This document shows, one piece after another, positions 21,513 to 63,147 of a stretch of 64,000 nt of DNA. The first letter of the stretch is position 1; every line of letters begins with the position of its first letter. Location of the stretch: NCBI GenBank assembly GCA_964036045.1, contig OZ038379.1, forward strand, positions 115,161,604 to 115,225,603. The letters run 5' to 3'. The translations under genes and the position numbers were made by a program. Origin of the DNA: Eutreptiella sp. 'Long Island Sound 2002'. Lineage: Eukaryota > Euglenozoa > Euglenophyceae > Eutreptiales > Eutreptiaceae. The notes below the pieces were generated by a model. It worked only from the letters and a program-made list of their open reading frames with translations. It was not told where the DNA came from and made no database searches.

Positions 21513-21683
21513 TTCTTTTTTTTGCTATTTACTGAGAAACATTACTTCGTAGTTACAAACGGCACACAAAGCTTATGGGAAAGAGAAGACTCGGGTGAAA
21601 ACGCACCGCTAGGTTCACAGAATGCAGTACAAAAAGATCCGGTGAGCATGAAAAGCAAGCAAGGACGTGATGATCAACCACCA
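21513..21683 (+). pseudogene. 5' part of a coiled-coil protein ORF, split by the LINE
   Basis: An open frame runs from after TAG at 21510 to the target-site duplication at 21668-21683; the only in-frame ATG is at 21648 (MKSKQGRDDQPP). The reading continues in phase at 63148 with IDVLLNKIDEKMDKRF, a coiled-coil-like sequence. A pyrimidine-rich run followed by CTGAG (21513-21536) could be a 3' splice site, making this an exon, but the upstream part is not identified. The protein may be a host gene or the ORF1 of another retroelement; I do not recognise it. Confidence 0.55.
21668..21683. repeat. Left target-site duplication of the giant LINE
   Basis: TGATGATCAACCACCA, repeated exactly at 63132-63147. 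The next bases (TTTGG here, ATTGA there) agree at three of five positions, so the duplication could extend to 20 bp with one mismatch. It directly follows the split ORF and directly precedes the TTAGGG units. Confidence 0.75.
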
Positions 21684-21688
21684 TTTGG

Positions 21689-21706
21689 TTAGGGTTAGGG
21701 TTAGGG
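21689..21706 (+). repeat. Three TTAGGG telomere-like units at the LINE 5' end
   Basis: Three perfect TTAGGG hexamers followed by TTTA, within six bases of the left target-site duplication. TTAGGG is a common eukaryotic telomere unit. Three units are too few to be a telomere. Confidence 0.8.
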
Positions 21707-22434
21707 TTTATGCCGCTGTTTGGCGAGGTCGCAAAATTTAGGACACTCACAGAAAACAAAAGAACAACAGAGTCGCGACGGCGACAAAGCTGAGCGTTGC
21801 TTGCCCCAAAACACCTAGCAAAATGCGTGTCCTAGGTGCTAGGGACTTGTGCGCGCTCCAACACCAATAGGAAAAACAAAATAACGAGACAACATAGGGT
21901 AGGCGCCACGTGAACATGCCGGCCGCCGAAACATGTATGTTATATGTTATACGATGCGCCACGATGCCACACGACGAAGGGGAGCTGAGGTGCGCAACGC
22001 ACGAGGGAAAGGACACAACGGCCGCACCGCCACCAACAAGAGGGCACGCCCACTAACATCCCCTGCACGCATAGGACGAGGACGCCATGAGACAAGCAAG
22101 GTTAAGGTGTGTGAAAGCATCAAGGGGAAGAGACCCCCCAAACGCAAAGCGCCACACGAAAAAACAGGGAAACCATGAAACACCATGAAACACACACAAG
22201 AGGCATGCCCATGCACACACACGCCATGAGAGCCGCCGCAAGCACGCCAAGGTATAAACGACCCGCCGCGGGACAAACCGACGCCACGAGCACCGCGCCG
22301 CTGCCCAATCGCCCACGTATGCGTTCTATACTCTCTTTACTCTAGGCCGCCCGCACGGAAAGAAGCATGGTATGAGGGACACCCGCACGGAACCGAAAGG
22401 AGGGAACCACACGCCGCCGGAGAGCACACCACCG

Positions 22435-22439
22435 CCAAC
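22435..22439. repeat. Left target duplication of gypsy element 2 (imperfect)
   Basis: CCAAC before the 5' LTR against CAAAC after the 3' LTR (37049-37053), one mismatch. Five bases is the usual Ty3/gypsy duplication length. Confidence 0.5.
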
Positions 22440-24790
22440 TGAAGCCGGTTCGGACCCCCGTGGCCATCCTGCGGTCACTTGGGGTGTGTATCTATGTGCC
22501 GGCAAGCCGCCATTGGCTGATATCATACTCTCCCGTCCACCTGAACTAACCCGATGTGATAGTGTGATAGGTTTGGCCATTCTGGCTACGAGCGGCCGTA
22601 TTCAGTACCGAGGCGCCGCCAGCGGAGAGTTATATATCAGAATATCAGGAATCAACAGGGCTTTATTATCATTAAGTTTTCCGTAATTTTTCAGCCTTTC
22701 GTTCTGATGGTCAATGTATCGGCGACTGTCAGTTGGCTCGCGATTTTGCGTTAACCGATTGGTTAACTGTTATTTCCAGATATTTTGGCGGAAACCCCGA
22801 TGAAGGGTCAGATTTCATCAGTAAAGGGTTCGTTGCTTCCGCAACTTTCTAAATATGCACTCGAAATTTTATTCTGAATTTTTCGCGATGTCGAAATCGG
22901 ATTTTCGACTTCGACATCGCCGCACTTGATTTGGTCTTCTTCGAGTGGTCATACTCTTTTCCCTATGCCGGAATCAGGTTTCCCTTATACTTGCCACCCA
23001 TTTGACTTGGAGATATAAGGGAAACAAAAGTGAATCGTGGGACCACTTTGAAGGGCCATATCTACGCGCGAGTGTGAGGAAAGAGAATAAGAAAGGTTGG
23101 GTTGCAAGCGCCTTAGTCTCAACTTAATTTAGAAAGCATCAAACGCCTTTGGTGTGTACACATGCCTGGTGTAGCAAGGTATAATGGTCAAGAGGGTAGA
23201 AAGTGATATAGAACTCTTGGATCGTGCAACCGAATATTTTCTTGCGACTTTCGAGTGTACCGTATGAGTGTTGGGGTTGCATAGATACTTTCATTGGGTT
23301 CCCCCGTATTTTTAACGTGAAGTTATGTCCATGGAGGGGCATGGCATACCATGGTGGGAGCCACTTTTGAGGGTATGTGTTATATGCATGGTATGTGCTT
23401 CGATATGCTCACGCCCATGTTATATATCTTCGTGTGGCCGAAGAGATGGGGAGCCACACGTGACAAGGGCTTTGCCCATGTCCCAATTGTGGAATTCAAA
23501 GCGCTAGACTAAGTCTACCGCGTATGTATTGCTCATGGTATGTTTGGCAAAGAGATCCATGAGTGCACTCCCATTTTCACCGGGCATGTAGATACGAGTG
23601 GCGAAGGTATCTTCATGCGCCTGATTGGGGATCCAAGTGGGGGAATTGTTTGCAAATGGTTCCAATCATTTGTATATTGAACCATGCGCGGATATCATGG
23701 GTGAGCATAGAGATATACTATCATGACAACTTTGTATTTGGTCATATTTTCATGTTTTTGACCTCAATTTTTGCTCATTTTTGTGTTTTATGTGCTCAAC
23801 TGGTCTGCTAACAGTAAAGTGCCTAGAGATCTGTGAACTATGGTATGTTGCTTAGATGTTGGCATATGCTTCGGTGTTGTACCTCACCATATGCCGGATC
23901 ACATGGTCACTCTGGCGTGGCACACGAGGCCTCACAAAATTAGGTCTCAAATTCATGAGCTGACTTGTGAAGCATGCCATGTACATAACTGGAGAAGTTT
24001 TGGAGCCAATGATGGGATATTCTTGGGCATGGACCTTTGGTATATATCACCCTTGTATACTACTCTCCGGTTTGACACATGCATGGAGCATTTGAATATT
24101 TGCCGTATGCATTTTTGAGTATATAATTGAATTTTGGGCATTATGGTGTGATTTGCCTGATTTTGCCATGTTGTGAGGTCATCTTCATGGTGCAGTTCTC
24201 CAAGCCCATTCGACCCCAAGTCCAACCAAGATTTTGTCAGGGTAGGGCATGGTCCTGAGTGCCACTCTAGGCCATGACACGCCACCTCCCTGATTGGGCT
24301 AGGATTTAAAGGCTCGGGAGTGAACACATTTTTGGGGTTTGTGTAGTGACTTTTGACACATAGCATTTAGCCATCCTATTTGACTGGGTTCAGGGCATCA
24401 TGTTGGGGAGTCAAGGGAAGGTCTTGACTCCAGGAAATGAGGGGTCTATGGCAGTGATTGTGTAAGTTTCCATCTTTCCTCAACTTTGCTTCATATGTGT
24501 TCATATGCCAATTTCAGGGCTTTCTTCCTTGGTGCAATTCTTGTACATGCCCGCCACCGTGAGACGACCGGTGTGCTGAACGGAAGCCCGCAGCCTGATT
24601 TGGATTCCGAATTGGGTTATTGCTGTATTTGTGGGATCTGGTTGCTGTTTCAGGGTTGAAGGAGGATTTTATTTTCTATATTTTTGGACTTTGGACCCTT
24701 TCGAATTTGAGGAATGCAATCACTGATCCGGAGTAAATCAGCAGGGGTAACAGGCGGAAGGGGCACAGCGGGGGCCGGTCCCTGTAGGGA
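22440..24790 (+). repeat. 5' LTR of gypsy element 2
   Basis: 2351 bp, starting TGAAGCCGGTTCGGACC and ending GTAGGGA, aligned end to end with 34699-37048 with scattered substitutions. Near 22885-22920 it has an 11-bp perfect inverted repeat (GCGATGTCGAA ... TTCGACATCGC). ORFs of 60-90 codons occur in both LTRs, but none has recognisable features. Confidence 0.9.
22885..22920. other. LTR hairpin (inverted repeat), 5' LTR copy
   Basis: Arms GCGATGTCGAA and TTCGACATCGC, 11 bp and perfect, around a 14-base loop. The counterpart in the 3' LTR is at 35143-35178. Possible protein-binding or RNA-structure element; function unknown. Confidence 0.5.
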
Positions 24791-24799
24791 CCTTCTTTA

Positions 24800-24811
24800 T
24801 GGTAGCAGAGG
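24800..24811 (+). promoter_or_regulatory. Primer binding site, initiator tRNA-Met type
   Basis: TGGTAGCAGAGG, nine bases after the 5' LTR, is complementary to the usual 3' end of eukaryotic initiator tRNA-Met including CCA. Position and match fit the minus-strand primer site of an LTR retrotransposon. Confidence 0.8.
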
Positions 24812-27800
24812 CTTACCTGCTGCCCCTACCAACCGCCGACCCGGGGACTTGGGCCCTTATGAGCCCTGCCCAAGTACGCCCCGGGTGCGTATTGTGGAGT
24901 CGGTGGAGACCACGCCGGAGATTGGAGCCATAGAGGAGCGGAGACGTTCCAGAGCATGGCGAACTCCGGAAGTTGAAGCCCGAAGAGAAGTACGACATTC
25001 GGGAAGAGGAGGACGGGACATGGAGGATCTGGTCTCCATGTGTGAGCGTCGCTGCCGAAAGGCATGCAACCTCCGCTCCGCCGCGGAGGACTCTGACGAG
25101 GCCTGCCATTCAGGCAGCAGTGGAGGACACGCCCGGCGCTACCGGAAGCGCGGGTCACCCAAGCCCGCGGCCGGGGACGCCGGGGCTATGGATACGGACC
25201 CCAGCCTGGTCAGGCTGTGGGACTCCGAGCACTCTGAGGGCTATCAGACAGCTTATGAGCCACCCTCGGAGTCGGAGGAGACGGCCAGGCCGCCCACAAG
25301 GGCGCATACGGCCCCTGAGCCCGCCCTGAAGCACGACGCCGAGGGCTTGGAGAGGCCAGCCAGGGCCCGGACGGCACCTGTGCCCCGACACACGGGACCA
25401 GAGACGGACGCCATAGGCGATACGCCCATGGGCGATGAGTCTGAGGCGCCGGGAACCGCGGGATGCGCTGGATCAGGTGGAAGGCACGCTGAGTGCCACT
25501 GCGAGCACATGTCCTTCCTCATGGGCAAGTACCCAAAGATGGGGATGGACGCCATCGTGCATCGTCTCGACCGCCTGGACAACGCGAAGGACGGTCTGGA
25601 GGAGGACGTCGCCGGGATCCTGGATGACCAGTCGGCCGCGGAGAAAGACATGGAGGAATTTGAGCGGAACGGGACCGGTACCGGGAGAATCTGGAGCTGG
25701 CCCTGGAGAAGCAGCAGCGAGTGGTGGACAGCCTCCTCCACCTGGTGGAGGACATGTCGGGACGCCTGAAAAGGCTAGAGGAGCTACAGCCCCTTGCCTC
25801 GGGTCCGGAGCTCCCGGCAAAGCCGGCCGCGGCAGAGCTGGTGGAGCGGGTTAAGACCCTCAGGAGCGCCATGGATAAACCCATGGGCGGCCCTGCAGAG
25901 GCACCATACGCGCCTCCGCGTGTTGACCCGGGTGCGCTGCCGTTTGTTCCCATGTTCAGCGAATCCACAATGCTCGGGGAACAAACGGCACCGGCTGGGT
26001 CCATGCGGGAAGGGCACGTAACCACGGACCCGAGGAGCCTGACGGTACAGATGTCCCACGCCGCCCAGGATCTACCGCCAATTACGAATACCCATGCAGT
26101 TTATGCTGAAGAGGAGATCCAGAGCCAGACCATGCAGGGGCGAACCATGGGAAGCGCCGACGGACATGGTCGAGGCCACCCAGGCGGAAATCTGTGGGCG
26201 AAAGACCCCACGACGGGGATATGGACAGCCGATGGAGCAAGTCCTTCCCGCATTCCAAACCCCATGGGTTCAGGCCCAACTGGACCGCACTCCATGGAGG
26301 AGAGGGATGTACGGGGAGTGTACTCACACCCCCGGCCACAGGTGGTATCCGTCTCGGAGGAGTAGTGGCTGGGGACGTCGGAGACGCCATCAGGATTGAC
26401 GACCTCAGGGGAATCAAAATCCCCTATTACGACGGGAACCCGTCCAACCTTGATGACTTCATCCTGGACTGGGAGGACTTCGCCGAGGAGGTCGTCGGCG
26501 AGATGCGGGGAGCGCCGCGGGACAAGTGGGTATGCCGGACATTCCCACACCGGCTGGCGCAGGACCTGAAGGAGGAGCTGCGGGATCAGATCCGGGAAGG
26601 ACTGATCCGTACAGAGCAGGCCTGCCTCCAGTGGCTGGAGGATGAGGAGCGGGTGGACGCTCCGAACCAGAAGCTGGAGGACCTGTGGTCCATCCCACTG
26701 CCGCTGGACCGCGGTGAGTTGCCCGTCCGGGAGTGGAACCGGTATCTGCGGAAGTACCGCAGATGCCTCAAGCTGGTGGAGGACTGGAACGAGGCCAGCG
26801 AGATCCGCCACCTCCTGAAGGACGTCCTCCCCGGCAACTGGAAGAGACGAGTGGAGGACGAGGAGAAGAAGCGCGCCAAGAAGCGGGTGGCGGTGAGGAT
26901 CATGGCGGCGGAGGATACCCATACGGGTATCATGGAGTTCTTCAGGAGGAACCTGGGCGAGCCCAACCGGATGTTGGGACTGAAGAACGCCGTGTATGTG
27001 GAGGTGTTTGGAGACTTCATGGGGCAAAGGTTGCTGCGCCTCAACAACATGGAGTGGAGGCGCGGGGAGCCGCTGAGGATGCAAGTCATCTTCGCCCGCA
27101 TGAGCCTGGACGAGATCGTGAAGTACATCACGGTGGAGTTGAAGCTCAATGCGAAGAACGAGGCACACGTGCAGGATCGACATGGTCATGGACAACGAGG
27201 CCACCGAGAAGACCGCCATCATCGGGAGATCCAGGAGGACATGGCCAACTCTGCGGAGGATGGTAGTGGAAGTGGCCAAGATCACTGGTCCCGGGAGGAT
27301 CACGAGGAGGCCCATTTCTTCGCGTTTGTGGCGAACAATGTGAGGGACCATGGGCAGGATCAATCCAGATGGAGCCTGGTGGGACCCAAGAAGGGCAACG
27401 CGCCAAGGAGGCTCGGGAACCCACCGCTCTCGTTCCGAGAGTACAGGTCTCAGCACGTCGGGTGCTGGGTCTGTTATGGCAAGGGAAACGACCATGCACA
27501 CGACCACCGTCAGTGCAAGGTGTATGAGGCGGACAAGAAGGCCTACTTCGCCGCTCACCCCGAGAAGAAGCCCAAGGAGCAGCGGATTTCCGATTGGAAG
27601 GCGAAGGGCGGAGACGGGGGAAAAGGCCAAGGCAAAGGCCAAGGAAAAGGCGGAGGAAGAGGCTATGGTGGTGGACCTGGCCAAGACCGACGAGTGAGGC
27701 CGATCGAGGTGGATGCTGAGGACATGTTGAGGACGTTGGAGGAACCCCAGGCCCAGCAACGTGGTGGACAAAGTCCTGGCGGATCGCAGCCGGAAGGGGC

Positions 27801-27819
27801 TGCGGGAAGTCAAGTCTAG
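24812..27819 (+). pseudogene. Gag of gypsy element 2, three frames
   Basis: Coding passes through three frames. One frame is open from within the LTR end (ATG at 24714) to about 25670; the true start is unclear, with in-frame ATGs near 25021 and 25190. A frameshift near 25670 cuts a predicted coiled coil that runs from GMDAIVHRLDRLDNAKDG to LEKQQRVVDSLLHLVEDM. The second frame ends at 26365. The third frame, to TAG at 27817, carries a capsid-like helical region (IPYYDGNPSNLDDFILDWED), a cluster CWVC-x8-H-x4-C (GCWVCYGKGNDHAHDHRQC) and a GKGQGKG-rich basic tail. The spacing is wider than the canonical CX2CX4HX4C knuckle. Gag role is inferred from order and composition. Confidence 0.8.
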
Positions 27820-27899
27820 AGGAGCCCCGGCGGGAGTGGGACCTCGGAGGTCTCTCCTCCGAAAGTCAGTGGAATTCAGAGAAAGCAAAGGCACATCGG

Positions 27900-30482
27900 G
27901 TGCCGAAGAAGGCTCCGGAAGAGCCAAAACCACTGAGTTTCGCCACTCCCAACCCCTGGAGCGCCCTGCCAAGGGAAGTACATGTGGGTACGGGACATGG
28001 CAAGAAGGAAGGAGCGACCACGGAGAGCCCCATGGACGGGCAGGACCAACCCAAGATCTACACCATCCGTGATCATACCCTTGAAGTCCTGATGCACCCG
28101 GACGTGCTAGAGTTGCATGCCGTGAGAGTCGTCCATACACCTCATGGCGACGAGCGGCAGTTGCACTTGAAAGTGCGAGTACGGTGGGGACGAGAGGGGA
28201 GGGTGGTGGATGTGTTGGTGGATACGGGTGCCCAGGTGAGCCTGGTCCGGAGAGGGTTGTTCAAGGAGGAACTCATGCAGCCCAGCCGGAGGCCGGTCCG
28301 CCTGAAGGTCGCCAACGGAGAGATTATGGGTGGTGGCACCCATGAGGCCACTATCAGTATGGAATTCTGGGAACATGAGCGCTTGAACCGCCCTGATCAG
28401 GCGAAGAGAAGCACTCTATCCGGGAACTTCTATGTGGCCGACATCAAAGATTGGGATATGATCATGGGGTATGACTTCATGGTGGCAAACGCCATTGGAG
28501 CCCTTCCCCATCGTGCAACGCTTGTCCGGGAGGATGATGAATGCCTCACATGGCTGTCCACGGACTATGCATGCGGATCATCCCAATGGAATGCTGCGGA
28601 AGAGGATCGGATCGTCCAAGCGGTGCAAGCTGTGGGTGCCAAGTCCAGAGGAGACCGTGGAGTTCAGCTCACGGAGTATGCAATGGCGCCGCAAGTGTAC
28701 GCCAGGATGATTCAGACGCTGGGAGCCGAAGCGCCCGAGACGGACGTCTTCGCTTCCCGGGATGCCCCACTTTTGAGGAAGTGTAGGGGGCATTGGCATC
28801 GAGGAGACTCAGCCTGGCATGGGCATTGGGGTTTGAAGGAGTGGGGGCCCATGTATTGGCATGGCTCCCTGGATAACACCAGACGTACGGTGGAGAAGAT
28901 CGTCGCGGATAGGGCGAAGGGGATCCTGGTCATAACCGGCATAGGATCCACCCCATGTCCGCTGGAGGGTCTCAAGTCGACGCTGGACTCCATCACCCTG
29001 AACGAGATGTCATTCGGGCCAGAGGAGGAGTTGTTCATCGACGCCAAAGGTGTATCAATGCCCTCCCCGGGTCAGGCGTGGGGTACCAAGGCTTTCCTGG
29101 TGGATGGGGCGCAGGCCCAGCTCACGGGTGATGAAGCATTCATCCGTAGGGTGGAGGCGGTGCCCATGAAGGTCATGTTTGAGCCCAAGGAGGGGACGGA
29201 ACAGCCTATTGATGGCATTGACGTCCTGTCCCACGCCGAGATCGACGACGTCGTCAACTACATGCGGATGGGGATGCACGACCGTGTGGCAGCCAAGAAG
29301 AGGCGGGCCATGGTCAGATCTCCGCATTGGTCGGATGACAAGATGTTGGTCACCGGCAAGTACGAGAAGGACGAGTTCGTGGCGAGGGTCATGGATCACA
29401 TCGCGGACCAATACGATGGTCCGGTTGGGTCGGACCCACCAAAATGGGATTTTCCAAGAATGGGTGCCGATAGCGACAGTCACCAGCCCGAGGCCGCAAA
29501 TTTCCGAAGATTATTGGTGGGAAGAGCTCCCCACACCGATGAAGACGGCATGTCGGACGAGGAGAAGTCGGAATCGGACCCAGAAGAGGCCTATACCGCA
29601 GTGCGGTCGGTTGTATCTATACGGAAGCAAGCGTCTGAAGAGGCCCAGGAGAACCCGAAGGTCGCCGAGCTGAAGGAGAGGTTGATCAAGGCCTATCCGC
29701 GGCTATTCAGTGGCGTCGCCAACAAGAACCCTCCAGATCGCCGGCGGTTTGGTACAGCGAAAATCAAGCTGAAGCCGAACCCGAAGATCTATCGTCATCG
29801 GGAGTACCAACTTCAGGGCGATCGGGCCGAGGCCATGAAGAAGCTGTTGGCCGAGTTCATTGAGCGGGGATGGATCGAACCCTCCGACAGTGAGTGGGCC
29901 AGCCCAGCCTTCATCGTGCCCAAGAAGGAGAAGGGCGAGTGGAGGTTGGTGGTGGATTACAGAGGTTTGAACGAGCAGACCGAGCACGACTCGTACTCGC
30001 TTCCCCTGATCGACTCCATCCTCCAAAAACAACAGAAAAAGCGGATCTTCACGGTGTTGGACCTGAAACACGGTTATCACCAGATGCCGCTACACCCTGG
30101 CTCCAGGCCCAGCACAGCAATGTCGACGCCGCTGGGGCCCATGCAGTGGAAAGTGGTGCCTATGGGCGCCAAGAATGGCAACGCCGCTTTCCAGCGCATG
30201 ATGGAGGACCTACTCGGTCCTGTCCGGGACTGTGCCGATCCCTTATTTGATAACATCATCATCGGGTCCGGCACGGAGAACATGACTGATGACGAGCTCA
30301 TCGACGCGCATGAGAAGGATCTGCGCCGAGTGCTCAGCGAGCTGGACAAGCACAACATGGTGTGCAAGCCCACCAAAGCCTCACTCTTCGTGAAGGAAGT
30401 GGAGTTCGCGGGTCACGTGGTTGGTCACGGGCAACGCCGTCCCATGCTTGGGAAGCTGGCCTCCCTGCACCACTTGGAGAAG
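27900..30482 (+). pseudogene. Pol of element 2: protease, Dam-like domain, RT copy 1
   Basis: Open frame from a GTG at 27900 (frame link to gag unclear) through the first repeat of the internal duplication. The protease shows VDVLVDTGAQVSLV near 28220. At about 28690-29010 a domain opens TDVFASRDAPLL and continues to KGILVITG, the same architecture as the FAS...PDWG domain in copies A and B. The RT has VVDYRGLNEQ, intact motif A (VLDLKHGYHQ, Asp 30060-30062) and PMGAKNGNAAFQR. Its catalytic motif reads LFDNII: the second Asp is Asn (30252-30254). The frame enters the second repeat unit out of order at 30483 and ends at 30563. This RT copy should be inactive. Confidence 0.88.
29051..30482 (+). 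repeat. Internal tandem duplication in pol, unit 1
   Basis: 1432 bp from TGTATCAATGCCCTCC to CACTTGGAGAAG, repeated next to it at 30483-31912. The junction at 30482/30483 joins the RT end to the pre-RT linker. Confidence 0.93.
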
Positions 30483-31912
30483 TGTATCAATGCCCTCCCC
30501 GGGTCAAGCGTGGGGTACCAAGGCTTTCCTGGTGGATGGAGCGCAAGCCCAGCCGTCGGGTGATGAAGCATTCATCCGTAGGGTGGAGGCGGTGCCCATG
30601 AAGGTCATGTTTGAGCCCAAGGAGGGGACAGAACAGCCTATTGATGGCATTGACGTCCTGTCCCACGCCGAGATCGACGACGTCGTCAACTACATGCGGA
30701 TGGGGATGCACGACCGTGTGGCAGCCAAGAAGAGGCGGGCCATGGTGACATCTCCGCATTGGTGGGATGACAAGATGTTGGTCACCGGCAAGTACGAGAA
30801 GGACGAGTTCGTGGCGAGGGTCATGGATCACATCGCGGACCAATACGATGGTCCGGTTGGGTCGGACCCACCAACATGGGATTTTCCAAGAATGGGTGCC
30901 GATAGCGACAGTCACCAGCCCGAGGCCGCAAATTTCCGAAGATTATCGGTGGGAGGAACTCCCCACGCCGATGAAGACGGCATGTCGGACGAGGAGAAGT
31001 CTGAATCGGACCCAGAAGAGGCCTATACCGCAGTGCGGTCGGTTGTATCTATACCGAAGCAAGCGGCTGAAGAGGCCCAGGAGAACCCGAAGGTCGCCGA
31101 GCTGAAGGAGAGGTTGATCAAGGCCTATCCGCGGCTATTCAGTGGCGTCGCAAACAAGAACCCTCCAGATCGTGGGAGGTTTGGTACAGCGAAGATCAAG
31201 CTGAAGCCGAACCCGAAGATCTATCGTCATCGGGAGTACCAACTTCAGGGCGATCGGGCCGAGGCCATGAAGAAGCTGTTGGCCGAGTTCATTGAGCGGG
31301 GATGGATCGAACCCTCCGACAGTGAGTGGGCCAGCCCAGCCTTCATCGTGCCCAAGAAGGAGAAGGGCGAGTGGAGGTTGGTGGTGGATTACAGAGGTTT
31401 GAACGAGCAGACCGAGCACGACTCGTACTCGCTTCCCCTGATCGACTCCATCCTCCAAAAACAACAGAAAAAGCGGATCTTCACGGTGTTGAACCTGAAA
31501 CACGGTTATCACCAGATGCCGCTACACCCGGACTCCAGGCCCTGCACAGCGATGTCGACGCCGCTGGGGCCCATGCAGTGGAAAGTGGTGCCTATGGGCG
31601 CCAAGAATGGCAACGCCGCTTTCCACCGCATGATGGAGGACCTACTCGGTCCTGTCCGGGACTGTGCCGATCCCTTCCTGGATGACATCATCATCGAGTC
31701 CGGCACGGAGAACATGACTGAGGACGAGCTCATCGACGCGCATGAGAAGGATCTGCGCCGAGTGCTCAGCGAGCTGGACAAGCACAACATGGTGTGCAAG
31801 CCCATCAAAGCCTCACTCTTCGTGAAGGAAGTGGACCGTGGGTCACGTGGTTGGTCACGGGCAACGCCGTCCCATGCCTGGGAAACTGGCGTCCCTGCAC
31901 CACTGGGAGAAG
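30483..31912 (+). repeat. Internal tandem duplication in pol, unit 2
   Basis: 1430 bp, differing from unit 1 by scattered substitutions and a net 2-base loss near 31832-31845 (GTGGACCGTGGGTCAC against GTGGAGTTCGCGGGTCAC) that shifts the frame. Confidence 0.93.
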
Positions 31913-32500
31913 CCCCAGACCATCAGCGAACTCCGATCCTTCATGGGGTTCTGCAATTACTATTCGGGCTATGTCCGGATGTATACAGAACTGTCGGGGC
32001 CGCTGCACAAGATGTTGCAGGTGGGCAAGTTCGATGGCCGGAAGGGGAGCAAGAAGAAGCTTGCCTGGACCCCTGAGGCTGAGGATGCGTTCAACTGCCT
32101 GAATGAGCGACTCCTGGGGCAGTTGGGGCTGTTCCTGGTGGACCCGGACAAGAGATTCGTGCTACGGACAGACGCCTCGGACTATGCCGTGGGGGCAGTC
32201 CTCGAGCAAGTCCGGGACGACGGGACTCATGTTCCCGTGGCGTTTTGGAGCAGGATCCTGGCCGAGGGCCAACGCCGAACATGGACCGCGAGGGAGAAGG
32301 AGACATACGCCATTGTATGTGCGCTCAGGAAGTGGTCTGGCCACATCGGACTGCAGCCGGTGGTGGTTTGCACGGACCACCAGTCCCTACAGAGCTGGCA
32401 CAAGGAGCATGTCGACACCCCCTCAGGACCAGCGGCTAGGAGGGCCCGATGGCACGAGACGTTCGCCAAGTTCGATCTCAGCGTCGTGTACGTCCGGGGA
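30483..32500 (+). pseudogene. Pol of element 2: RT copy 2 and RNase H
   Basis: The second RT copy is read in the frame ending at 32076. Motif A is VLNLKHGYHQ, with the catalytic Asp changed to Asn (31492-31494), while the catalytic motif LDDIII (31678-31692) is intact: the mirror image of the damage in copy 1. After the 2-base loss near 31840 the frame moves to one that carries the RT thumb (SELRSFMGFCNYYSGYVRM) and RNase H: LRTDASDYAVGAVLEQ, AREKETYAIVCAL, VVCTDHQSL. Another frameshift near 32497 precedes the last RNase H motif (KDNTVADCLSRW). Confidence 0.88.
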
Positions 32501-33840: not shown

Positions 33841-34304
33841 AGCGGCACCACAAGGATGTCCTGTCCAGGCATCGGCAGGCATCTTGGTATGTGCCGGGGG
33901 TAATCGTTCGGAAGGTCGGGCAGGATGTGTATCCGGTTCGTGTGGGGAATAACAAGATCCTGGACCGCGACCATACCCAGCTGCGTCCCCGAGCACCAGA
34001 CCCCAGCGGACGTCCCGTCACCTTCGAGTTCACGACCGGCGATGTGGACTCGGACGACGAGGGTGAGGACGACGACTTCACCAGTGAGAAGATCCTGGCG
34101 GACAAGCCGGACCCGGGGACGCCTGGGGGTAGGCTTTATAAAGTCCGTTGGAAGGGATTCGCCGCATACAGGGATTCGTGGGAGCCTCCGAGCAGTTTTG
34201 TGCCGAGGTACACCACGGTCTGGATGGACTACCTGAAGAAAAAGAATATTTCTTCGGATGTCAAGGACGTGTTGGTCAATTTGTTTGCTGCTGTAGCGCC
34301 GTAA
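33831..34304 (+). pseudogene. Pol of element 2: integrase C-terminus and chromodomain
   Basis: In-frame continuation after the frameshift, ending with TAA at 34302. The first part (WVERHHKDVLSRHRQASWYV, YPVRVGNNKILDRDH) is the integrase C-terminal tail. An acidic linker (DVDSDDEGEDDD) follows, then a chromodomain: ILADKPD, RLYKVRWKGFAAYRDSWEP. As in copy A, the chromodomain is at the very end of pol, so both families are chromoviruses despite different gag and LTR sequences. Confidence 0.88.
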
Positions 34305-45324: not shown

Positions 45325-45325
<1 letters not shown>

Positions 45326-53640: not shown

Positions 53641-56609
53641 GATGAACACCTCCACTATTGCCGCCGCGAGCAGGAGCCCACCAACCACCCCGGGTGGCGC
53701 GACGCCTTGGTCCACCTCTTCCACGGCACCGGCACACGGGACCCCCGCCTGAGACTCCTCCACCCCACGAGGGCTAAGCAGGACGCCCACACCGGCCCAC
53801 GGGTGACCCCAGACTGCCTGCACCTCCGCGTCGGGGGCTACCGCCGCCTATCCCCCCCCATGCGGGGGGCGGCGTACCACCCGCCGGCAGCCCTCATGTA
53901 CATCCTCCACGACACGAGAGCCTAACGCGGATGTGGCGTGGCGCGAGCCCCTGCGCCCCCGGCCCCACGCGCCGATGCCGGTGTGGTTGGTGACCACGGA
54001 CGACCAATGCACCCGAGCGGCGGGGCAAGCGCAGCTCCAGGCCGAGTAGGTAATAGTGCAGGTGGGAGCAGGCCACCCCAGGCCCCGTGGACTCCAGGGG
54101 TAGCTACGGGGGTGCCGCACGACCCACACATGGCAGTGCACGCGCTGGAGGACCAGCCAGAGGACACGGGACACCTGGTGGTGCACCAGCGCGGAGGCCC
54201 GGCGTGGCTCAAGGAACATGTGACGGCACTTCGGTCCTGGGCAAGCACGATCGCCGGAGCAGAAATCTGGCTGCACGACCACGCGGCGATCAGCCCTGGC
54301 GACACCAGGGCGCTGAGCGTGGACCAAATGATTCCCAGCCACCCCGACGTCCGGTGGGACTCCGCCGACCTCAACGCGGGGTGGCTCAGCCCCACCGGGT
54401 ACTACTGGATCCCGGAGGCCTTGGGCCACACCTCATCCGACGCATCAGGGGGCAGACCCTGCAAACACGACACCAGCGTCGCCCTCTCCGCCGACCTCAC
54501 CCGCCCGTGGGCGGTGGCCATCTCGGGCACGGTACCCGACAGGGAGGGGGTGGCCGCCTCACTCCCCCTACAAAACGGCGCCCACCGACCATGGGTCCAC
54601 ACGGTGGACGCCGAAGTCATCCTCACCTCCTGCGACACGCAGATCGCGAGCGGACCACGGGGGTCCCCGCGGGCGCGGCGAAGGTTGTCAGCCAGATGCC
54701 CCTACGGTGGCTCCGGGACGGCCTGTGCGCGCGAGGGCGACACGCCGGGGACCCGTTCTGGTACGTCCGAGCCACCTCGCACCACAGTGAAGCCCTACTG
54801 CACAAGACGGACTGGGCGGCGTCCCGGGACACCGTCCTGCAGAACACGCCCCCGGACCCTGGCCACGCCCAACTCATTGTCGCCGGTCGTGACGGCCACC
54901 CCGATCTACGGCCCCCCACGATGCGGACGCTCGCCGAGGTCGCGCAGCGGGCGCAGACGGACCATGCGCTGACGCACCGAGGACACACACCTCTGGGCGC
55001 GGCCCACGCCACAGCCTATGTCCACGCCCGGGACCTCACCGCGACAGCCACCAACCGCCGGGCGCTGCGGGCCAGAGACGGCCACACGCCGGTGCAGCGC
55101 AGGCACCGCGTCCGTAAGGAGCGGCTCTCCGGCGTCGCCGTCTTCCCACAACCGTGCCTCCTCTGCGGCGGCCCGGAGGAGCCCCCGGTGCACATCCACG
55201 TGGGGTGCGCCCACTCACGGCTCCTCCGGCCCCACTACCGCCAGGCGGTACACGAGGCGGCCCGCCACCTCCCACCCGGGGACAAAGCCCTGTGGGTGGC
55301 CTCGTGGCGCTCCGCAGGCGCCACATGGACAGAAGTCTTCTGCTCCGGGCTGGTGCCCGAGGACGCAGAGGCGCAGCTCCGCGCCATAGCCCGCTACAAC
55401 CCCCCGGTAGGGACCTCTGTGGACAATTTCCTCCACCACATGCTCTGGCTTGGGGACTTCGCATGGGAGCTTCGCAACCACCGGCTGCAGCAACTCCTCC
55501 GCGAGCCCCTAAGCGCGGCGGCCCGGGCGCACCGATGGCTCACCGTGGCGGAGGGCGACCACCCCCCCCCTCCCCCGCGCCCTGACAAGGACTTCGTAGC
55601 CTCCCTCCGTGTCGTGAATGGCACTCTTGAGTGCCCGCCACAAGAAGGCCCCCACCCGTACCAGGACCTGCCGGAGGGGTTCTCGAAGCACCCGCAAGAC
55701 GCCCTCTTCCAACCGTGGATCATCGGGCGCGGCTCCATGACCGCGTGGGAGGCACGCATAGTGGGTGAGGAGTGGGCACGCGAGTGGAGCCGGTAGTGCG
55801 CCGCGACGCGCGCCCCGGAGACCCCTGCGCAACTATACGCCGCCATCCCGCTCGAGAGATGGGGGCCGGACACCCGGCCGAGACCCACCGTGATCCGCGG
55901 GGCGGGACCTGACCACCCGTGGGACGCGGCGACGGGGGAATGGCTGCAAGCGGCCCCGGGGCCGCAAACAGGATGGACTGGGGACGTGTCCTCACTCGTC
56001 AGGACGCCCGTCCCCCCCCGCATCGTCCTTCACGCCGCCAACGTACTCCGGGCTACGGAGATACGCAAATGGGGACACGCCACGGCCACCGTCTGATGGC
56101 ACCCCCGGGAGGACGGGGCCGCCCAGCTCGCCGTGGCGCACTTCAAAACTGGGGGGCCGGTATACGACGACGCCCTGTCCCGGCTGGGCGACACCCAGGG
56201 GCCTTTGCTCCTCATGCTCCCCACCGACCTTGCAGCCGCGCTGCGCCAGGAGCTGGACGGCTGCGAAGGGCTGCGAGTGGGGTGGGAGGCAGTTGCGGAC
56301 GGCACCCTACTGGCCCTCCTCCACCGGGACGCCGCAAACGGTTGCCAATGGGATACGCTGGCGCCCGACCTCACCGGGCGCCACGTGTACATGGCAACCC
56401 CCTCCCAGGGGCACCCCCTCCCGGCGTGGGACCACCTCATCGCCGCCTTCCAAGACCACGGGATTCTCCCCAACGACACGTGGCGGGAGGTCCAGCGGAA
56501 GACGCTCGGCAGGGACTACCGGCACCGCGTCCGCGCCCGCCTGCTGGAGATCCGGGACCCCCTCCAACAGAGGTGGGACGACCTCTGGCTCCGCCATCTG
56601 GACCCTTGA
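53641..56609 (+). pseudogene. LINE ORF2 C-terminal part, possible RNase H and CCHC-type finger
   Basis: Coding continues through frameshifts near 53460 and 54660 and in-frame stops TAG 55794 and TGA 56094, ending at TGA 56607. Around 54430-54840, TSSDASGG, TVDAEVILTS and WYVRATSHHSEALLHKTDWA recall the Asp, Glu and His/Asp motifs of RNase H, but the match is loose. At 55155-55208, CLLCGGPEEPPVHIHVGC fits the C-x2-C-x8-H-x3/5-C finger found after the RT in many LINEs. The last ~330 residues (to DPLQQRWDDLWLRHLDP) are not recognised. The whole ORF2 would exceed 2000 residues, longer than usual for LINEs. Confidence 0.6.
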
Positions 56610-56954
56610 TCGCCGCCCTCCCACCTCCCGCACACCTGCCGACTCCCCGAGGAATGTGACACGGTGTCCTCCGCAGCGTCGACAGCCGCCAACAGGTGGG
56701 CGCGGTGCGCCCAGGTGGCCGCTTGCCCCTGGCCCGAGCCTCCTGCAGGCCCGCGCAGGCGCACGGAGGAGGAGGCCTTGCACCGGCGCATCGAGGGGGC
56801 ACATGCCCCCTGACACGAACGCGCGGGCCCCGCGGGCGCTGCCCTTCTGTGGATCCACGTGCACCTGCGGGTCCCCACATCTGTTGCACACCTGTCGCAC
56901 GTGTTCGCGCCCTGACCCTCACCCGCCGCCGCCCTTTGCAGAGCCCGCAGTACC
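56610..56954 (+). other. ORF2-ORF3 intergenic stretch
   Basis: 345 bp, GC-rich, with no gene supported. One frame reads CGSTCTCGSPHLLHTCRTC, Cys-rich by chance or as a remnant; I give it no function. Confidence 0.4.
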
Positions 56955-58100
56955 ATGCCACGCCGACGGGGGGATGGGGCGGGACACGCCAGGGCCCGCC
57001 GCAAAGCGCAGGAGGCGACTTTCCTGGGCCTGGTGGCGGACGCGGTGGCAGAGGCGCATGAGGCGCACCCTGCCGCACGACGTGACCTGACCGGCAGTGC
57101 GAGGGCTTTCCTCAACGAGACCGCCCTCCCGGCCGTCCGCGCCCTGAACGGAGCAGGGGCCCCTACGCTACTCCCGGCGATGCACCGGATTGTGGACACC
57201 ATCCAGCCAGGGCTCATCAGCCTGGAGGCGGCCCTCTACGGGCACTGGATGGAGTGGCGCGAGTCCAACCAGTCGGGCCGGCTCCTGTCCATGGGGGACA
57301 CCCTGCAGCTGACGGGAGCGGGGTCTGCCATGTCTCTCCGCAGCAGTGCCCCAGCCCTGCTGCACGCCCTCAGGACGCGCTACCCCGGAGACACGGCCCC
57401 GTACCTGAACCAGGCGCGGGCCACATACCCGGGGGGAGTGTCCGAGCTGGATGCGCCGCTCCACCTTCTACACCCACCGGACGAGGACCTGAAGCTGGGC
57501 GAAATCACGGTGTTCGTGGAAGGCGCGGACGAGGGGCCCGCCCGCCCCAGGCCGACCAACCCGGTGTACGACGGCACCAGGCCGACCCCCCAATACGCCA
57601 TCGTATGCAAGGCGTTCCCCAGGGAGCCCACCTGGTGCCCCGCCCTCCGGCTGGCGACGCACGCGCCCCGCGGCTGGGCCAACCCAGACCTGTCCCCCCC
57701 CCTCTCCAGAACCAGGAGTGCCCACCACAGGGGGCAGGTCCTCCGGCAAGAGCGCCCTGGCACCCCCCTGCTCCTCCTCGTTGTCGCGACCCGCGGGGAC
57801 CCTGAACGGGTCCTGGGGATCACCCCCACCCACCTCTATGGGGCAGCACCCGTAACCCGCCCCCCCCTCCCGGCGCCCGCGGCGCGGGACGGGGTACACA
57901 CCTTCCTGCGAACACAGGAGGTCACCGCCGTTACGGGAGTCCACCTAGTGCGGCTCCCCCCGGCACCACCCGACGACCCCCGAGGGCCCAGGGCCCTGAG
58001 CCCCGCCCCAGACTGTGGCGCGACGCGTGGGCCGCGTGGCTCCCCCGCCTCCCTCCCAATGCCCATGGATGGCCGCCGGCGCCCGCCTGTACGGGGCTGA
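56955..58100 (+). CDS. LINE ORF3, unknown protein, 381 aa
   Basis: The cleanest long ORF inside the LINE: ATG at 56955 (MPRRRGDGAGHARARRKAQE) to TGA, with no internal damage. The basic N-terminus is followed by a helical, globular-looking region (ATFLGLVADAVAEAHEAH, PAVRALNGAGAPTLLPAMHR). A further segment follows with EITVFVEGADEG, QYAIVCKAFPREPTWCPA and LLLLVVATRGDPERVL, typical of a folded alpha/beta protein. The last ~60 residues are Pro/Arg-rich. It has no membrane segment and no motif I can name. It lies 345 bp after ORF2 on the same strand; LINEs usually end with ORF2, so a third ORF is unusual. Confidence 0.5.
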   Translation: MPRRRGDGAGHARARRKAQEATFLGLVADAVAEAHEAHPAARRDLTGSARAFLNETALPAVRALNGAGAPTLLPAMHRIVDTIQPGLISLEAALYGHWMEWRESNQSGRLLSMGDTLQLTGAGSAMSLRSSAPALLHALRTRYPGDTAPYLNQARATYPGGVSELDAPLHLLHPPDEDLKLGEITVFVEGADEGPARPRPTNPVYDGTRPTPQYAIVCKAFPREPTWCPALRLATHAPRGWANPDLSPPLSRTRSAHHRGQVLRQERPGTPLLLLVVATRGDPERVLGITPTHLYGAAPVTRPPLPAPAARDGVHTFLRTQEVTAVTGVHLVRLPPAPPDDPRGPRALSPAPDCGATRGPRGSPASLPMPMDGRRRPPVRG

Positions 58101-58178
58101 CGCCACAGCCGGCCCGCCAACCCCTCCCCCCCTCCCCCCCGCAGAGCACTGCACGGCACTGCCCACGGCACAACACTG

Positions 58179-60125
58179 ATGCACCGGGAGGTAGTGGGAA
58201 GGGCGCGCCTGACACCACGCATGCCTACCAAGATAACAGTGATGGCAGACTCCGATGGCTCCCCCCAGCGGGACGACCACCACCACCGCCGGTCCCGCTC
58301 CCGCTCCCCTGTCTCCCCGGAGTGGGTGGGGGAGACCCCCGCGGTGCGCGAGGAGCGGTGGCTGGCGGAGGCGGCGGTGCTGGTCGGGCCGCCGGCTGGG
58401 CAGCCCCGGGCGGCCTCTGCCGACACCGGGCCGTCGACCCAGGAGCCTGAGCCGACCGAGGTGACCGCCCCCGCCGCCCAGGCAGAAAGCCATGCCGCCC
58501 CGCACCAGGAGGGGGCCACAGAGGCGCGGGGAGCGGAGACCACAGCCCAAGCGAGCCACGCCGCGGCCTTGACCGCGGCCCCCGGCGCGCCGCCGATACG
58601 GGGGGTAGCCCCGGCGCAGGGACCTGGCGCATCGCCGAGGGCTGCCGCAGCCGCAGAGGGGAGCTCGGAGGGCGCGCGAGGGGGTGCGACCGCAGCCCCA
58701 GCGAGTTGCGCCACCGCCTCGGCCGGCCACGCCGCGGCCCCCAGCACGCCACGAAAGCAGGGGAAGGACCCCGCACGGGCCAAGGGCGCCTCGCCGGCGG
58801 CCGCCGCAGCAGCAGCAGTGGGCGGGGAGGGCGCGAAGTACCGCGCCCACGCCAACACCACCCACACCCACACCAGCCCCTCCAAGCCGTTCTTCCCCAA
58901 GCCCTTCCCCCCGGGGCGGACGCGGCACGTCCGCCCCCCGGCACCCGAGCGCTCGCCGCCGGGCGTCACGCTGCCGCAGCTGCAAAGGCAGCGGAACGCC
59001 CGGCGCGTGATCCAGGAAGGAGGGGACGGCGCTCAGGCAGAGCTGCGTGCCAGCCACAGGAGCGCGGAGCGGGGGACAGGAGGCGACAGGGGAAGTGCCC
59101 AGGAGCACGCGCAGGGAGCGGGCCAGGGCACACGCGGCAGGGAGCAAAGGCGCAGCAGCGGAGGGGGACAGAGTGCGGGCAGCGGACGGCGCGACTCAGG
59201 CAGGGAGTCTGGAAGGGGCCAGGACACGGGAAGGGCGCGCAGGGCCGCCGGCAGAGTGCCCAGGTGCATGGAGCGGGGCGAGGGACGGTGGGCGAGCGGG
59301 CAGGCCAGGGCGTGGGTGAGAGGGGGCGGGACCCACGACACGGGCAGGGGGCCGGAAGGGGGCCCAAGGGCAAGGCCAAGGGCGCCACGGGCCCCCAGGG
59401 ACAGGCGGGACGGGGCATGGGAGCCCGGGGGGGGGGGCGGGTCGAAGGGAGGGGGGCAGGGGGCGGGGTGCCCCCGCTGCCCGACGTGCAGCCGGTGAGG
59501 TGCATCCCCCCCGGCATCGAACATATGCCGGTGCACCACACCCACCACCACCACCACCACCACAACCAGCTCTACAACATCGACCCTGACGCCAGCGAGC
59601 TCATCCCCCCCCAACCCCCACGACCCCAGCACCAGCCAGCCCCCCCCGCACCGAGAGCGGAGCTGGCGCGGATGGCCTCGGCGGGGGGGGGGCAGGGCGC
59701 GGCACTGGCGCTGCAGGCACAGGGGCAGCAGGGGGAGCCGGCGCGAGAAGCAGAGGGGGCTCGGCCCTGGGACGGGGACTGGGGCACGGTCCCGGACCCT
59801 CTGGGGGATGAGGCCCTCCCCCTGTGTGGGGGAGGTGTACGGGTGGTTGAGCTGGGCCAACCAGGGGACCACCAGGGGGTTGAGGAACCAGCCCTTCGAT
59901 GCTGTGCTCCTCCGGAGGGACGGAAGAAACCGGGAGGTACCCCCGGGGGGGTGGGCAGCCCCAGAGGACCACGAGAGGGTCCTCAGGTCAGTGATCCGGG
60001 CGGCGTGGCCCGACAGAGGGCCGACGTGGCCGGCCTTCCTGGAAGGGGGAGCGGTACTCCGCATCACGGACGCGGACGCCAACAACTGGCTCCCCCGGGC
60101 CTTGCGCAGCGCGCTCGCCCACTGA
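58179..60125 (+). pseudogene. LINE ORF4, low-complexity protein, frameshifted
   Basis: Starts at ATG 58179 or, more likely, 58221 (MPTKITVMADSDGSPQ). The first part has HHRRSRSRSP and a long Ala/Pro/Glu-rich disordered region to about 59080. Reading then passes to another frame with Gly/Arg/Gln-rich sequence, a run of seven His (near 59545-59570) and LYNIDPDASELIPPQ. Near 59800 it returns to the first frame for a compact C-terminal domain: VYGWLSWANQGTTRGL, then WPAFLEGGAVLRITDADAN, stop at 60123. The Arg/Ser and Gly/Arg composition suggests RNA binding. No family is recognised, and the frame assignments in the low-complexity part are tentative. Confidence 0.4.
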
Positions 60126-63100
60126 CGCTACCACCGGCGCAACCCGCCGCCGCCACAGCCCCAGCCCCCACACAAGCGGCGGCGCAGGTGACCGCCCAGA
60201 CGGCGGACGCGAGAAAGTGGGGGGGGGAGCTGGGCCCCCCGACCCACGCCTCCCCTACGATACGGCAGGACGGAGGAGCACGCGCCACCTCCCGCGGGAG
60301 GGAGGGCGGAGACAACGAAGGGAGGGGGGAACCTACTGCCCCGCAGCCCGCTAACCGCTGACCGCTAACACTCACGGCCGCCCACGGCCGGCCAGCGCCG
60401 CGCGACGACGGCGGGGGGGGACGAGAGGCCCCAGCGAGGGCCTGCACGAGAGTCCGACTCTAGGTAGAGGGGGGCGGGGGAAGAGTGCGACCCCCCAGCC
60501 GACGGCTGGCCCCCGGGGCCGGGACCGCCAGGCCGCCCCGCCTCGTCCATCAGGGGGCGGCGCCAGGGGACCAGAGGGCCCCCTCCACTCCCCCCCCCCC
60601 TCCCCCTCAGGCTGAAGAGCGAACATAGGCAGACCGAAGAGACGGCGGCCCCGCAACCCCCCCTGAAGAGGCCGCTGCACCTGGGGTGAGGGGACACCGC
60701 GGCCGCGGCAAGCGCCCCCGGTGAACCGCCTGCACGCACCCGCCCTGCCCGCTGCCGGCGGATGGCGGACCGGCGGCGCCCAGGACGGCGCAAACAGAGC
60801 GGCCCCTTCAGAAGCCGGCCTCGGGAAGACGGGGGCGCAAACCAGGGCGGGCGCTTTCCCCCCCCCTCCCTCCCCCCCCCCCCCGCCGCACTGTCCCATT
60901 GGCGGCCGACTGGGCTGCGCCTGATGCCCGCGGCCACCCGGCAACCCCGACAGCACGAGTATACCCCGGGGGGGCACGCCAGAGACAACAGATGGCAGGC
61001 CGACACCCGATGGGACGGGGGGACAAGGGGTGGTGGGGCGGCCCCCCCACCCCCCCCCCTGCTCCCCCCCCCCAGCTTGTGGCCACAGGCGCGACCCTCC
61101 GCCCCCCCGGAGCCGAGGGGACGCCCCCCCTCCCCCTGAAAGGACCGCGACGCGGGGGGGGGGGAGTGCGGCTGGACCTGCACACCGTGCGCCCCAGCGC
61201 CCCCAGCCGCCTGCTCTCGCGGGGGTCGCGGCAGACAGGCGAGCCCACACCAGCGCGCCTGAGCAGCGCGCGGACCAAGCCTGGGGGCGGCGCACGGCGG
61301 CGCACCAGAACAGTATGGAGGCCGCGCCCCCCATGACCCCCCCATGACCATTGCCCACTCAGGGAGGGCAGAGGGGGGTTCAGGTCTGGAGGGGCCCCCG
61401 GAAGAGCGGTCCACGGACCGCCCTTCAATCCCCCCACCCCGGGGCGGCCCCGCGACCTGGACCGAACGCGCACGCCGGGGGGGAGTGCGCCGACAACAAG
61501 AGGGGGGCCAGGGTAGGGAGCCCCGGGCCGCCACCCGGAGGGGGAGCAGGGAGGCTGCGGCGCGACCCCCCCCCCCCAGCCCCCCCACCGGCCCGCAAGC
61601 TGCGGGGACCCCGGCCCCCACCCCCCGAGGCAGGGGGGATGGTCCGCCCTCCCCCCGCCCGAGACAGGAGCCGGAGCACGGCCCGCCCCCCCGCCCCAGC
61701 CGCCAGCTCCCACAGGAACCGCGGGGAACAAGCGAGCCCGCGGCAACGCGCCAGGACGGCGCACAGATCGCGCCCAGTGAAGGCGGGCGAGCACGAACCA
61801 GAGTGATATGGGGGGCCACGCCCCCCATGACCAGAACAACGCCAGTGACACCCGCTTTGTTGCCTGCCCAGGGAAGGCAGAGGGACCGAACGAGACAGAG
61901 CGACCCCCCGCCCTACAGGCCCCCCCTGGCCGCACAAACGGGGGGCACGGCGCACGGACCCCCCCCCCCCCTCCAGGCCGCGCCCCGGCACACGAATGCC
62001 ATGGACCCGCCCCACGGGGGGCGCACAGCCCCAAGCCAGGTAGGGGGACCGCCCCCGACCACCCCCGCGGCACGCAGCCCCCAAAGGGCGTGCAGGCCAA
62101 GGGGACAGTGTTGGGCCCCCACACCCACACGCCCGCGCCCACAGCACGTGGGTAGCGGACCCCAACAGCCCGCCCAGTGGGCGGGCGGTCGGGGGAGGGG
62201 GAGCGCCTGACCCCAGACGCCCCTCGCAACAGTGGAAGGCACCCCCCCCGGGGACGCCCTTCCGCCACCCCCACAGCCCCAAGCCAAGTAGGGGGGAACC
62301 GGGACCGGACCGCCCCCCCCCCCAAGCACGCCAGACGGAGCAAGGGACCGGGGCAGGTCACGCGGAGGGGCACGGACCACATGGAACGGCCCTACCAGCG
62401 CCCAGTGCCGGGACCGCGCGAGGTGCGCACGCCACACCAGCCAGGGGGGGGGGAGCGGACGCCGCGGGAGCACGAGCGCACACACACGTAAAGGGCACGC
62501 GGGGACTACCAGAAGGGCAACCGGACTGAGCTGGCGGAACGCACAGACCGCGTGGAATGGCGTACCAGCGAGCGAAGGTAAGGGACACCCGGACGAGACG
62601 CCCCGCCACACGCAGCGCGGGACACGCGGGGCGAGAAGGGGGAAACAGCAGAGACACAACACCAGGTACCGGCCCGAACCCCCCGAACCGGCCGCGAGCG
62701 CCGCGCACACACAGACGGGGCACTGCACATGCCAAGGCAGTAGTGGCGCACCGCGCCACGCCCCAACCCCTAGGCTAGGCAGCCTCCGCGCCAGCCCAAG
62801 GGGGTCCCACTGGCGACAAGCCAGTAGCACAGGCCCGGCGGCGCCGGCGCCCCGGGCGACCACGCATTAGGGGGGCGACGCGGTGCGTAAGCGCCTGCAG
62901 CCACGGCTGCGAATTGATGCACTGACCGGGGAGTGGCGAAACGGGGAAGCCGGGGAGGGACGGGGCTCCGAGCCCTGTGAAACCGGGGGACTGCGCCACC
63001 AGGCAGGAGGCCCGTCTTGGAGGGCCCCCCACTAGGATCCGGTGGGGAGGATATCACGTGGCCCGACCAGGTGGCCCCCCGGGGCCGAAAGGCGTCTAGT

Positions 63101-63131
63101 ACCCGCCAAATCAAACCTCAAACCTCAAACC
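60126..63131 (+). other. LINE 3' UTR
   Basis: About 3 kb, very GC-rich with many C runs, no gene supported; long ORFs here on both strands do not correspond to intact frames in the antisense fragment 42767-46131. One monomer-like unit (62050-62285), in the same direction as the 5' array, is bracketed by direct repeats CAGCCCCAAGCCAGG (62028-62042) and CAGCCCCAAGCCAAG (62275-62289). The last 0.9 kb is the best conserved part between the two LINE copies, as expected for the region recognised by the RT. Confidence 0.65.
63111..63131 (+). repeat. LINE 3' tail, three TCAAACC units
   Basis: Three perfect copies of TCAAACC end the element directly before the target duplication. The antisense copy also ends in three (42767-42787). 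Short tandem-repeat tails instead of poly(A) are known from some LINE clades such as CR1 and I. Confidence 0.8.
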
Positions 63132-63147
63132 TGATGATCAACCACCA
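63132..63147. repeat. Right target-site duplication of the giant LINE
   Basis: TGATGATCAACCACCA, identical to 21668-21683. Confidence 0.75.

Follow-up and report, generated by a model that had tools for sequence, protein, structure and literature searches.

A 64,000-nucleotide window of the Eutreptiella sp. 'Long Island Sound 2002' genome (G000:C2:115161604-115225603) carries an insertion, at 21684-63131, that is almost certainly one copy of a giant, autonomous-type family of long interspersed nuclear elements (LINEs), measuring approximately 23 kb once later insertions are removed. LINEs normally measure 4-8 kb. The site, the ends, the order of the parts, the nesting, the size and the domains of this copy are matters of direct observation, and all own-genome comparisons were made within the same assembly (2,280,300,865 bases in 2205 contigs). 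The features expected of a LINE are found together: a reverse transcriptase (RT) of the RVT_1 family, an EEP endonuclease domain in the same open reading frame (ORF), a target-site duplication, a fixed 3' end and an absence of long terminal repeats (LTRs).

The limits of the insertion are set by a 16-bp sequence, TGATGATCAACCACCA, which is present in identical form at both edges (Table 1) with no extension on either side, its right copy lying directly 3' of the (TCAAACC)3 tail. The left copy falls at the break of a reading frame ending in ..GRDDQPP, and this frame picks up again as DDQPPIDVLLNK.. past the right copy; the sequence-only reading had claimed just such a duplication, with a frame that halts and resumes in phase. 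The 16-mer has two matches in the window, a number reached in none of 100 dinucleotide shuffles. A 16-bp repeat within 64 kb is not rare in itself (26 isolated repeats of at least 16 bp were listed in the window, most in arrays or low-complexity sequence, and one further isolated 16-mer pair lies at 14139/61590), and the weight of this one therefore lies in its position. The target is itself a repeat, since a search with 63148-63900 returned seven places, of which the six other than the window are 77-79% identical to it. All six paralogues (L002-L007) are continuous across the insertion point, reading TGATGATCAATCACCA or TGACGATCAATCACCA, with the sequence left of the first duplication joined directly to that right of the second; in L006 the left-side similarity is shorter, beginning ~70 bp before the duplication. 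The earlier reading had proposed looking in another allele or strain for an empty site joining 21648-21683 to 63148 onward; these paralogues supply such a site within the same genome, and it follows that all of 21684-63131, leader included, is insertion.

Two copies elsewhere were read at length. The C16 copy (L038-L040, 28 kb) occupies a different site with different flanks and matches the window colinearly over 19.8 kb, leader through 58038, save for a 350-bp insertion; its remaining 8 kb, past 58038, has no match to the window. In its leader, two bases separate the counterparts of 22437 and 37048 and the gypsy element is missing, and its array is followed by 46106 onward with no antisense fragment. 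The C1 copy (L058, L062, L063, L050) is a single insertion of 19,407 bp between two 16-bp copies of TATTTTTGCTATATTG. It begins in the array and is colinear with 38771-63131 of the window, with neither a large insertion nor the antisense fragment; internally it differs in that its array is shorter, 160 bp are tandemly duplicated and small deletions occur. The C16 and C1 copies overlap across most of the body. At the C10 copy (L013/L054), of which the ends were read, a 16-bp duplication, TCCAACGCCTCTGATG, adjoins the 5' and 3' family ends, and the 5' junction carries 16 additional bases; the target-site duplications seen (window, C1 and C10) are therefore 16 bp each. The region is repeat-rich and chance 16-mer repeats are possible within 64 kb, so that unrelated pieces might have been misjoined between two such repeats during assembly; however, the empty site falls at exactly the same position in all six paralogues, C1 is an independent 19.4-kb insertion with its own duplication and C16 is colinear over 19.8 kb, and we regard an artefact of this kind as scarcely credible.

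Because C16 runs through leader, array, ORF1, ORF2 and ORF3 without either of them, the gypsy-type element and the antisense fragment of the window are later insertions. The LTRs of the gypsy element are 97.3% identical to each other, and the element splits a leader module, of which the two parts (22356-22437 and 37051-37111) match, in series, an unbroken module at 37396-37545. On either side of the antisense fragment stands a copy of a 319-bp sequence (42448-42766 and 46132-46450, with three differences in alignment), which is present once in the C16 copy. With the gypsy element (14,610 bp), the antisense fragment (3,365 bp) and one copy of the duplicated sequence (319 bp) taken out of the 41,448-bp insertion, the net length is 23,154 bp, in keeping with the ~23 kb that the sequence-only reading had arrived at, and the C16 and C1 copies agree; the parts listed in that reading (gypsy LTRs, antisense 3'-end copy, monomer array, RT and EEP domains) are likewise present as described. 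The element so restored comprises a 2.3-kb leader, an array with 419/212-bp periods, ~13.6 kb with codon-like periodicity, a 3-kb 3' untranslated region (UTR) and the (TCAAACC)3 tail.

Table 1. Features of the insertion and its edges (positions in the window; 48/48 and 0/29 refer to the leader comparisons described in the text).
Feature	Position	Strand	Remarks
Left target-site duplication TGATGATCAACCACCA	21668..21683		exact repeat; empty site in 6/6 paralogues
Filler TTTGG(TTAGGG)3 in the 5' break, foreign to the family	21684..21706	+	48/48 matches start at position 24 or later; 0/29 flanks
Leader, first part	21707..22439	+	5'-truncated by ~110 bp relative to other copies; leader-copy comparison and C16
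Nested gypsy-type LTR element, not LINE	22440..37049	+	LTRs 22440-24791 and 34699-37049; absent from C16
Leader, second part	37050..38612	+	polypyrimidine-AG and GTATG-like motifs within degenerate repeat modules
Monomer array	38613..42766	+	419-bp period made of two half-units of ~212 bp
Nested antisense 5'-truncated copy of LINE 3' end	42767..46131	-	absent from C16 and C1
ORF1 region	46505..50012	+	frame changes near 47850 and 49300; terminal C2H2-like motif CPLC..H...H
ORF2 region: EEP endonuclease, RT, long C-terminal part	50343..56606	+	frames broken
EEP endonuclease domain	50343..51134	+	one in-frame stop; PF03372 match
RT domain	51969..53642	+	RVT_1 match and PDB matches to R2 and L1 proteins
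ORF3	56916..58097	+	no known domain
ORF4 region	58101..60122	+	low-complexity protein; second half weakly supported
3' UTR	60130..63110	+	holds one array-like unit, 62044-62277
3' tail (TCAAACC)3	63111..63131	+	3'-end matches
Right target-site duplication TGATGATCAACCACCA	63132..63147		exact repeat

The leader differs in composition from what follows it (GC content ~45-60% vs 68-76% in the array and body) and shares no sequence with the array beyond their common edge. Together with the start of the C1 copy in the array, this could be taken to mean that the monomer array is the true start of a LINE of ~20 kb, and that the leader is a separate repeat brought next to it through 5' template switching or adjacent insertion. 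We consider this very unlikely: the C16 copy, at another site and with other flanks, has the same order of leader, array and ORF1, unbroken; leader copies share a start of their own amid differing flanks; and first-look searches gave counts of the same order for the leader (2123) and the 3' end (1646). The C1 copy has its own duplication, and 5' truncation readily accounts for its array start. As C16 is continuous from leader to ORF3, a separate leader element was rejected as a candidate. The sequence-only reading had held that an uninterrupted locus with 21684-38690 and no LINE would speak against it; no such locus was met among the copies read, and in C16, the one other copy read through this junction, the leader continues into the array and ORFs.

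The ends of the family were defined from samples of these candidates. Forty of the 2123 leader candidates were scored, giving 49 matches, and all 48 that lie outside the window begin at query position 24 or later. When 29 other leader loci were compared, with L011 as the reference, 24 of 28 proved to start within 10 bp of one another, at L011 positions 1385-1394, with later starts at 1407 (L015) and at 1515-1523 (L021, L031 and L036). This common start lies ~110 bp upstream of the base that matches window 21707. The upstream flanks all differ, except for one shared by L020 (C1:95269144) and L026 (C1:95242196), two leader copies that lie 27 kb apart and are, to judge from this shared flank, probably a segmental duplication. 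At the 3' end, where 40 of 1646 candidates were scored, 37 matches reach the final query base and the other three reach position 475 or 481 of 482. The tail was present at all twelve loci aligned, window included (ten with three perfect TCAAACC units and two with one mismatch). These twelve 3' ends are the best matches to the window, and hence a non-random sample; against their own majority the window is 97.1% identical and the others 97.7-99.4%. Truncation is variable, falling in the array in C1 and at ~110 bp in the window, while three of the 29 leader loci start later than the rest.

These ends bear on the 23 bases that separate the left duplication from the leader. The sequence-only reading had taken the TTAGGG repeats as the 5' start of the element, and had expected other copies to share both this start and the TCAAACC end. 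The tail is indeed shared, but no TTAGGG was found in any of the 29 leader flanks read, and the repeats belong to the window copy alone among those compared. The same reading had allowed that copies with 5' ends elsewhere, for example at the monomer array, would count against it; other copies do start elsewhere, yet ~110 bp further upstream, and the element is not shortened. Since they start upstream, the family is slightly longer than was supposed, the TTAGGG run is a feature of the break in the window copy, and the repeats were rejected as a family 5' end. A TTAGGG run already present in the target before insertion, or one that marks the 5' end of a subfamily, seems improbable: the run sits exactly between duplication and element, and with only 40 of 2123 leader candidates scored there is room for a small TTAGGG subfamily, but none of the six empty sites contains it, and the matches and flanks at the other leader loci are equally devoid of it. 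The run reads into the element from the 3' end of the target top strand, an orientation that fits extension of the target end by telomerase, while a LINE RT copying telomeric RNA would leave an identical sequence. Template switching is discussed in a 2026 paper on chimeras formed by LINE-1 (PMC13174262), in which a term search found neither 'telomer' nor 'TTAGGG'.

Base composition by codon position indicates coding sequence from ~46,480 to ~60,000, the reading frame changing near 47850, 49300, 51060, 52230, 53480, 54750 and 59300. The window RT is recognized in two pieces, at 51969-52646 (RVT_1, 29.8 bits vs a cut-off of 29.6) and at 52650-53642 (28.5 bits, below cut-off). The C16 copy gives a far clearer RVT_1 match (58.9 bits, E 7.7e-16) within a single open frame of 1620 codons spanning the RT and C-terminal part, along with a weak zf-RVT match (0.042, below cut-off). 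The EEP domain (PF03372) is likewise below the cut-off of 24.5 bits in the window (20.9 bits, E 3.4e-4) and above it in C16 (28.6 bits, E 1.5e-6). Among PDB sequences, the RT matches R2-type RTs (1.4e-13 to 4.2e-9) and L1 ORF2 (about 3e-4); neither the endonuclease nor a 331-aa piece of the RT found a PDB match, and a structure model of the endonuclease was discarded on its predicted local distance difference test score (pLDDT 34.7). ARAGORN and Rfam returned nothing in the window, and neither tblastn in phages nor two viral-contig scans returned a relative.

In order to judge whether these frames have been under selection, ratios of nonsynonymous to synonymous substitution rates (dN/dS) may be compared between the window and C1, and between the window and C16. 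They are low in both comparisons (C1 first) for ORF1c (0.47, 0.56), the linker (0.48, 0.51), the RT (0.52, 0.55), the post-RT part (0.51, 0.64), the C-terminal part (0.53, 0.68) and ORF3 (0.48, 0.60), against 1.08 and 1.22 for the array, and 0.73 for the 3' UTR read as if coding (0.94 for a 3' UTR piece vs C16). The endonuclease gives 0.50 vs C1, ORF1b 0.46 vs C1 and ORF4a 0.60 vs C1, the C16 comparison excluding ORF4. On these alignments, past constraint is supported for ORF1c to ORF3, the picture is mixed for ORF1a and ORF1b, and ORF4b is without such support.

Several observations weigh against the reading of the insertion as one copy of a giant autonomous-type LINE. Values near 1 were obtained vs C16 for ORF1a (1.05) and ORF1b (0.97), intermediate ones for the endonuclease vs C16 (0.79) and ORF1a vs C1 (0.80), and a value of 1.26 for ORF4b vs C1. 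The frames are broken in all three copies read at length (window, C16 and C1); the breaks lie at different places, and there is therefore no sign of a programmed frameshift, nor does any of the three show a working element. Among the copies sampled in the genome, none was seen that has both family ends and lacks insertions, so that the full length rests on the window copy minus its two insertions and on the C16/C1 overlap, and the leader-to-array junction was read at two loci only (window and C16). Nine other copies were sampled at a distance, of which only C1 is simple. Three are leader copies viewed 16-25 kb downstream, none of them simple: L053 is followed by a diverged LINE relative (75-79%) in two orientations, which means that older or sister subfamilies exist; L054 by a gypsy piece and then array and 3' UTR; and L055 by array and then a displaced 48043-51734. 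The other six are 3'-end copies viewed 18-25 kb upstream. One is C1; L057 (array and 46621-47200) and L061 (53129-55324) must be interrupted further down; and the upstream slices of L056, L059 and L060 hold no LINE sequence, that of L059 containing part of a gypsy LTR.

Some further observations concern individual parts. At L042, L043 and L054 a longer array stands directly before the 3' UTR, through either expansion or loss of the body. The reading of L042, L043 and C10 (L013/L054) as copies that lost their coding body was dropped, because the array may equally have expanded and the middle of C10 lies outside the reads, which do not show loss. The array-like unit that recurs in the 3' UTR, ~230 bp in length, is all that the 5' array and the 3' UTR have in common, and is not terminal. 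In the leader, GTATG-like and polypyrimidine-AG motifs recur ~300-430 bp apart (37050-38330; 126-2530 of the C16 copy), like a string of introns. The 319-bp duplication around the antisense fragment, compared with 16 bp at three other insertions, looks like a very long target-site duplication, and the three differences between its copies suggest that it is young. Part of this fragment, 43738-44625, had been a candidate for a nested short interspersed nuclear element; locus L051 is 94.5% identical over 44738-42765, and the part is therefore a 3' UTR variant. The gypsy element has an internal tandem duplication (29050-30482/30482-31912; 1.43 kb, 96.9% identical) that includes its RT domain. Left of the site, 1-21327 holds two related LTR elements, one with LTRs at 10527-11597 and 20268-21327 and the other a partial copy at 1-7805, 85-95% identical.

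Target-primed reverse transcription is established for LINEs, and the duplications, the fixed 3' end with its repeat tail, the 5' truncation and the pairing of EEP and RT fit this mechanism. A very long RNA would start at the conserved 5' end of the leader, from a promoter in the leader or the monomer array, and would encode ORF1, ORF2 (EEP endonuclease and RT) and at least ORF3, to be translated into active enzymes. The ORF2 protein would nick the repeated target and start synthesis at the TCAAACC tail, proceeding through up to >19 kb before repair leaves the 16-bp duplication. In the window copy, synthesis would have ended ~110 bp short of the family 5' end, and the break would have been closed with TTTGG(TTAGGG)3 by telomerase extension or by a jump onto telomeric RNA. 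The gypsy element afterwards entered the leader and the antisense 3'-end fragment the array.

The element resembles EEP (APE-type) LINEs such as L1, jockey and CR1 in that a single ORF carries both EEP and RVT_1 and is preceded by an ORF1 bearing a zinc-finger-like motif. Target-site duplications, 5' truncation of copies and a constant 3' end closed by short tail repeats are further points of likeness. Unlike them, it measures ~23 kb rather than 4-8 kb, with an ORF2 region of ~6.3 kb, one or two extra downstream ORFs and a 2.3-kb leader before a 4-5-kb array. Mouse L1 also has tandem monomers (~210 bp) upstream of ORF1, a likeness in layout; here, however, each monomer is half of a 419-bp dimer, the array is preceded by a unique leader whose start is fixed, and a single unit is found again in the 3' UTR. 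The R2 group is set apart by a restriction-enzyme-like (REL) endonuclease and a 28S rDNA target; here the endonuclease domain is EEP, the flanks of twelve 3' ends and 29 5' ends differ, and the window has no Rfam match. Terminons, giant Penelope-like elements of bdelloid rotifers, are described as reaching 40 kb with extra ORFs and as carrying telomeric repeats at the 5' break, like TTTGG(TTAGGG)3 here, but as lacking an endonuclease (PMC6431247). The present element has an EEP domain and, within a 16-bp target-site duplication, occupies an interior position on a chromosome arm, and its RT best matches R2 and L1, in a comparison set without Penelope-like RTs. Hebe, a jockey-clade LINE of Adineta vaga, similarly combines APE and RT with a subtelomeric association and 3' UTR tandem repeats, yet is described as of ordinary size, with a poly(A) tail and without 5' truncation (PMC2861651). 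In the 2019 review of giant transposons, 'non-LTR' is used once, for transduction (PMC6431247). No LINE above 20 kb was found in the open-licence literature, several of the searches there being poorly aimed. The kind of element, a LINE, is already known, and its size and layout are unmatched in the literature found. We see the case as evenly poised that this is the largest LINE yet recognised: an abundant, multi-ORF EEP family of ~23-24 kb, with an RT making >19 kb of complementary DNA per target-primed event and a capacity for healing broken 5' ends with telomeric repeats; the pairing of giant size with telomere-linked repair known from Terminons would then have arisen in true LINEs too.

The poor processivity of reverse transcription has been regarded as the limit on LINE size, 5' truncation being what usually results. 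In a family of ~23 kb, where candidate leader and 3' ends number in the thousands and most sampled leaders reach one start, the enzyme would have to be unusually processive or the RNA strongly protected, and such a giant LINE offers a natural enzyme for the testing of processivity. Furthermore, annotation easily breaks giant LINEs into pieces at the nested insertions and the array, and their share in large genomes may be underestimated. Finally, through the telomeric repeats at the 5' break, a connection of LINE integration with telomerase or telomeric RNA becomes open to test.

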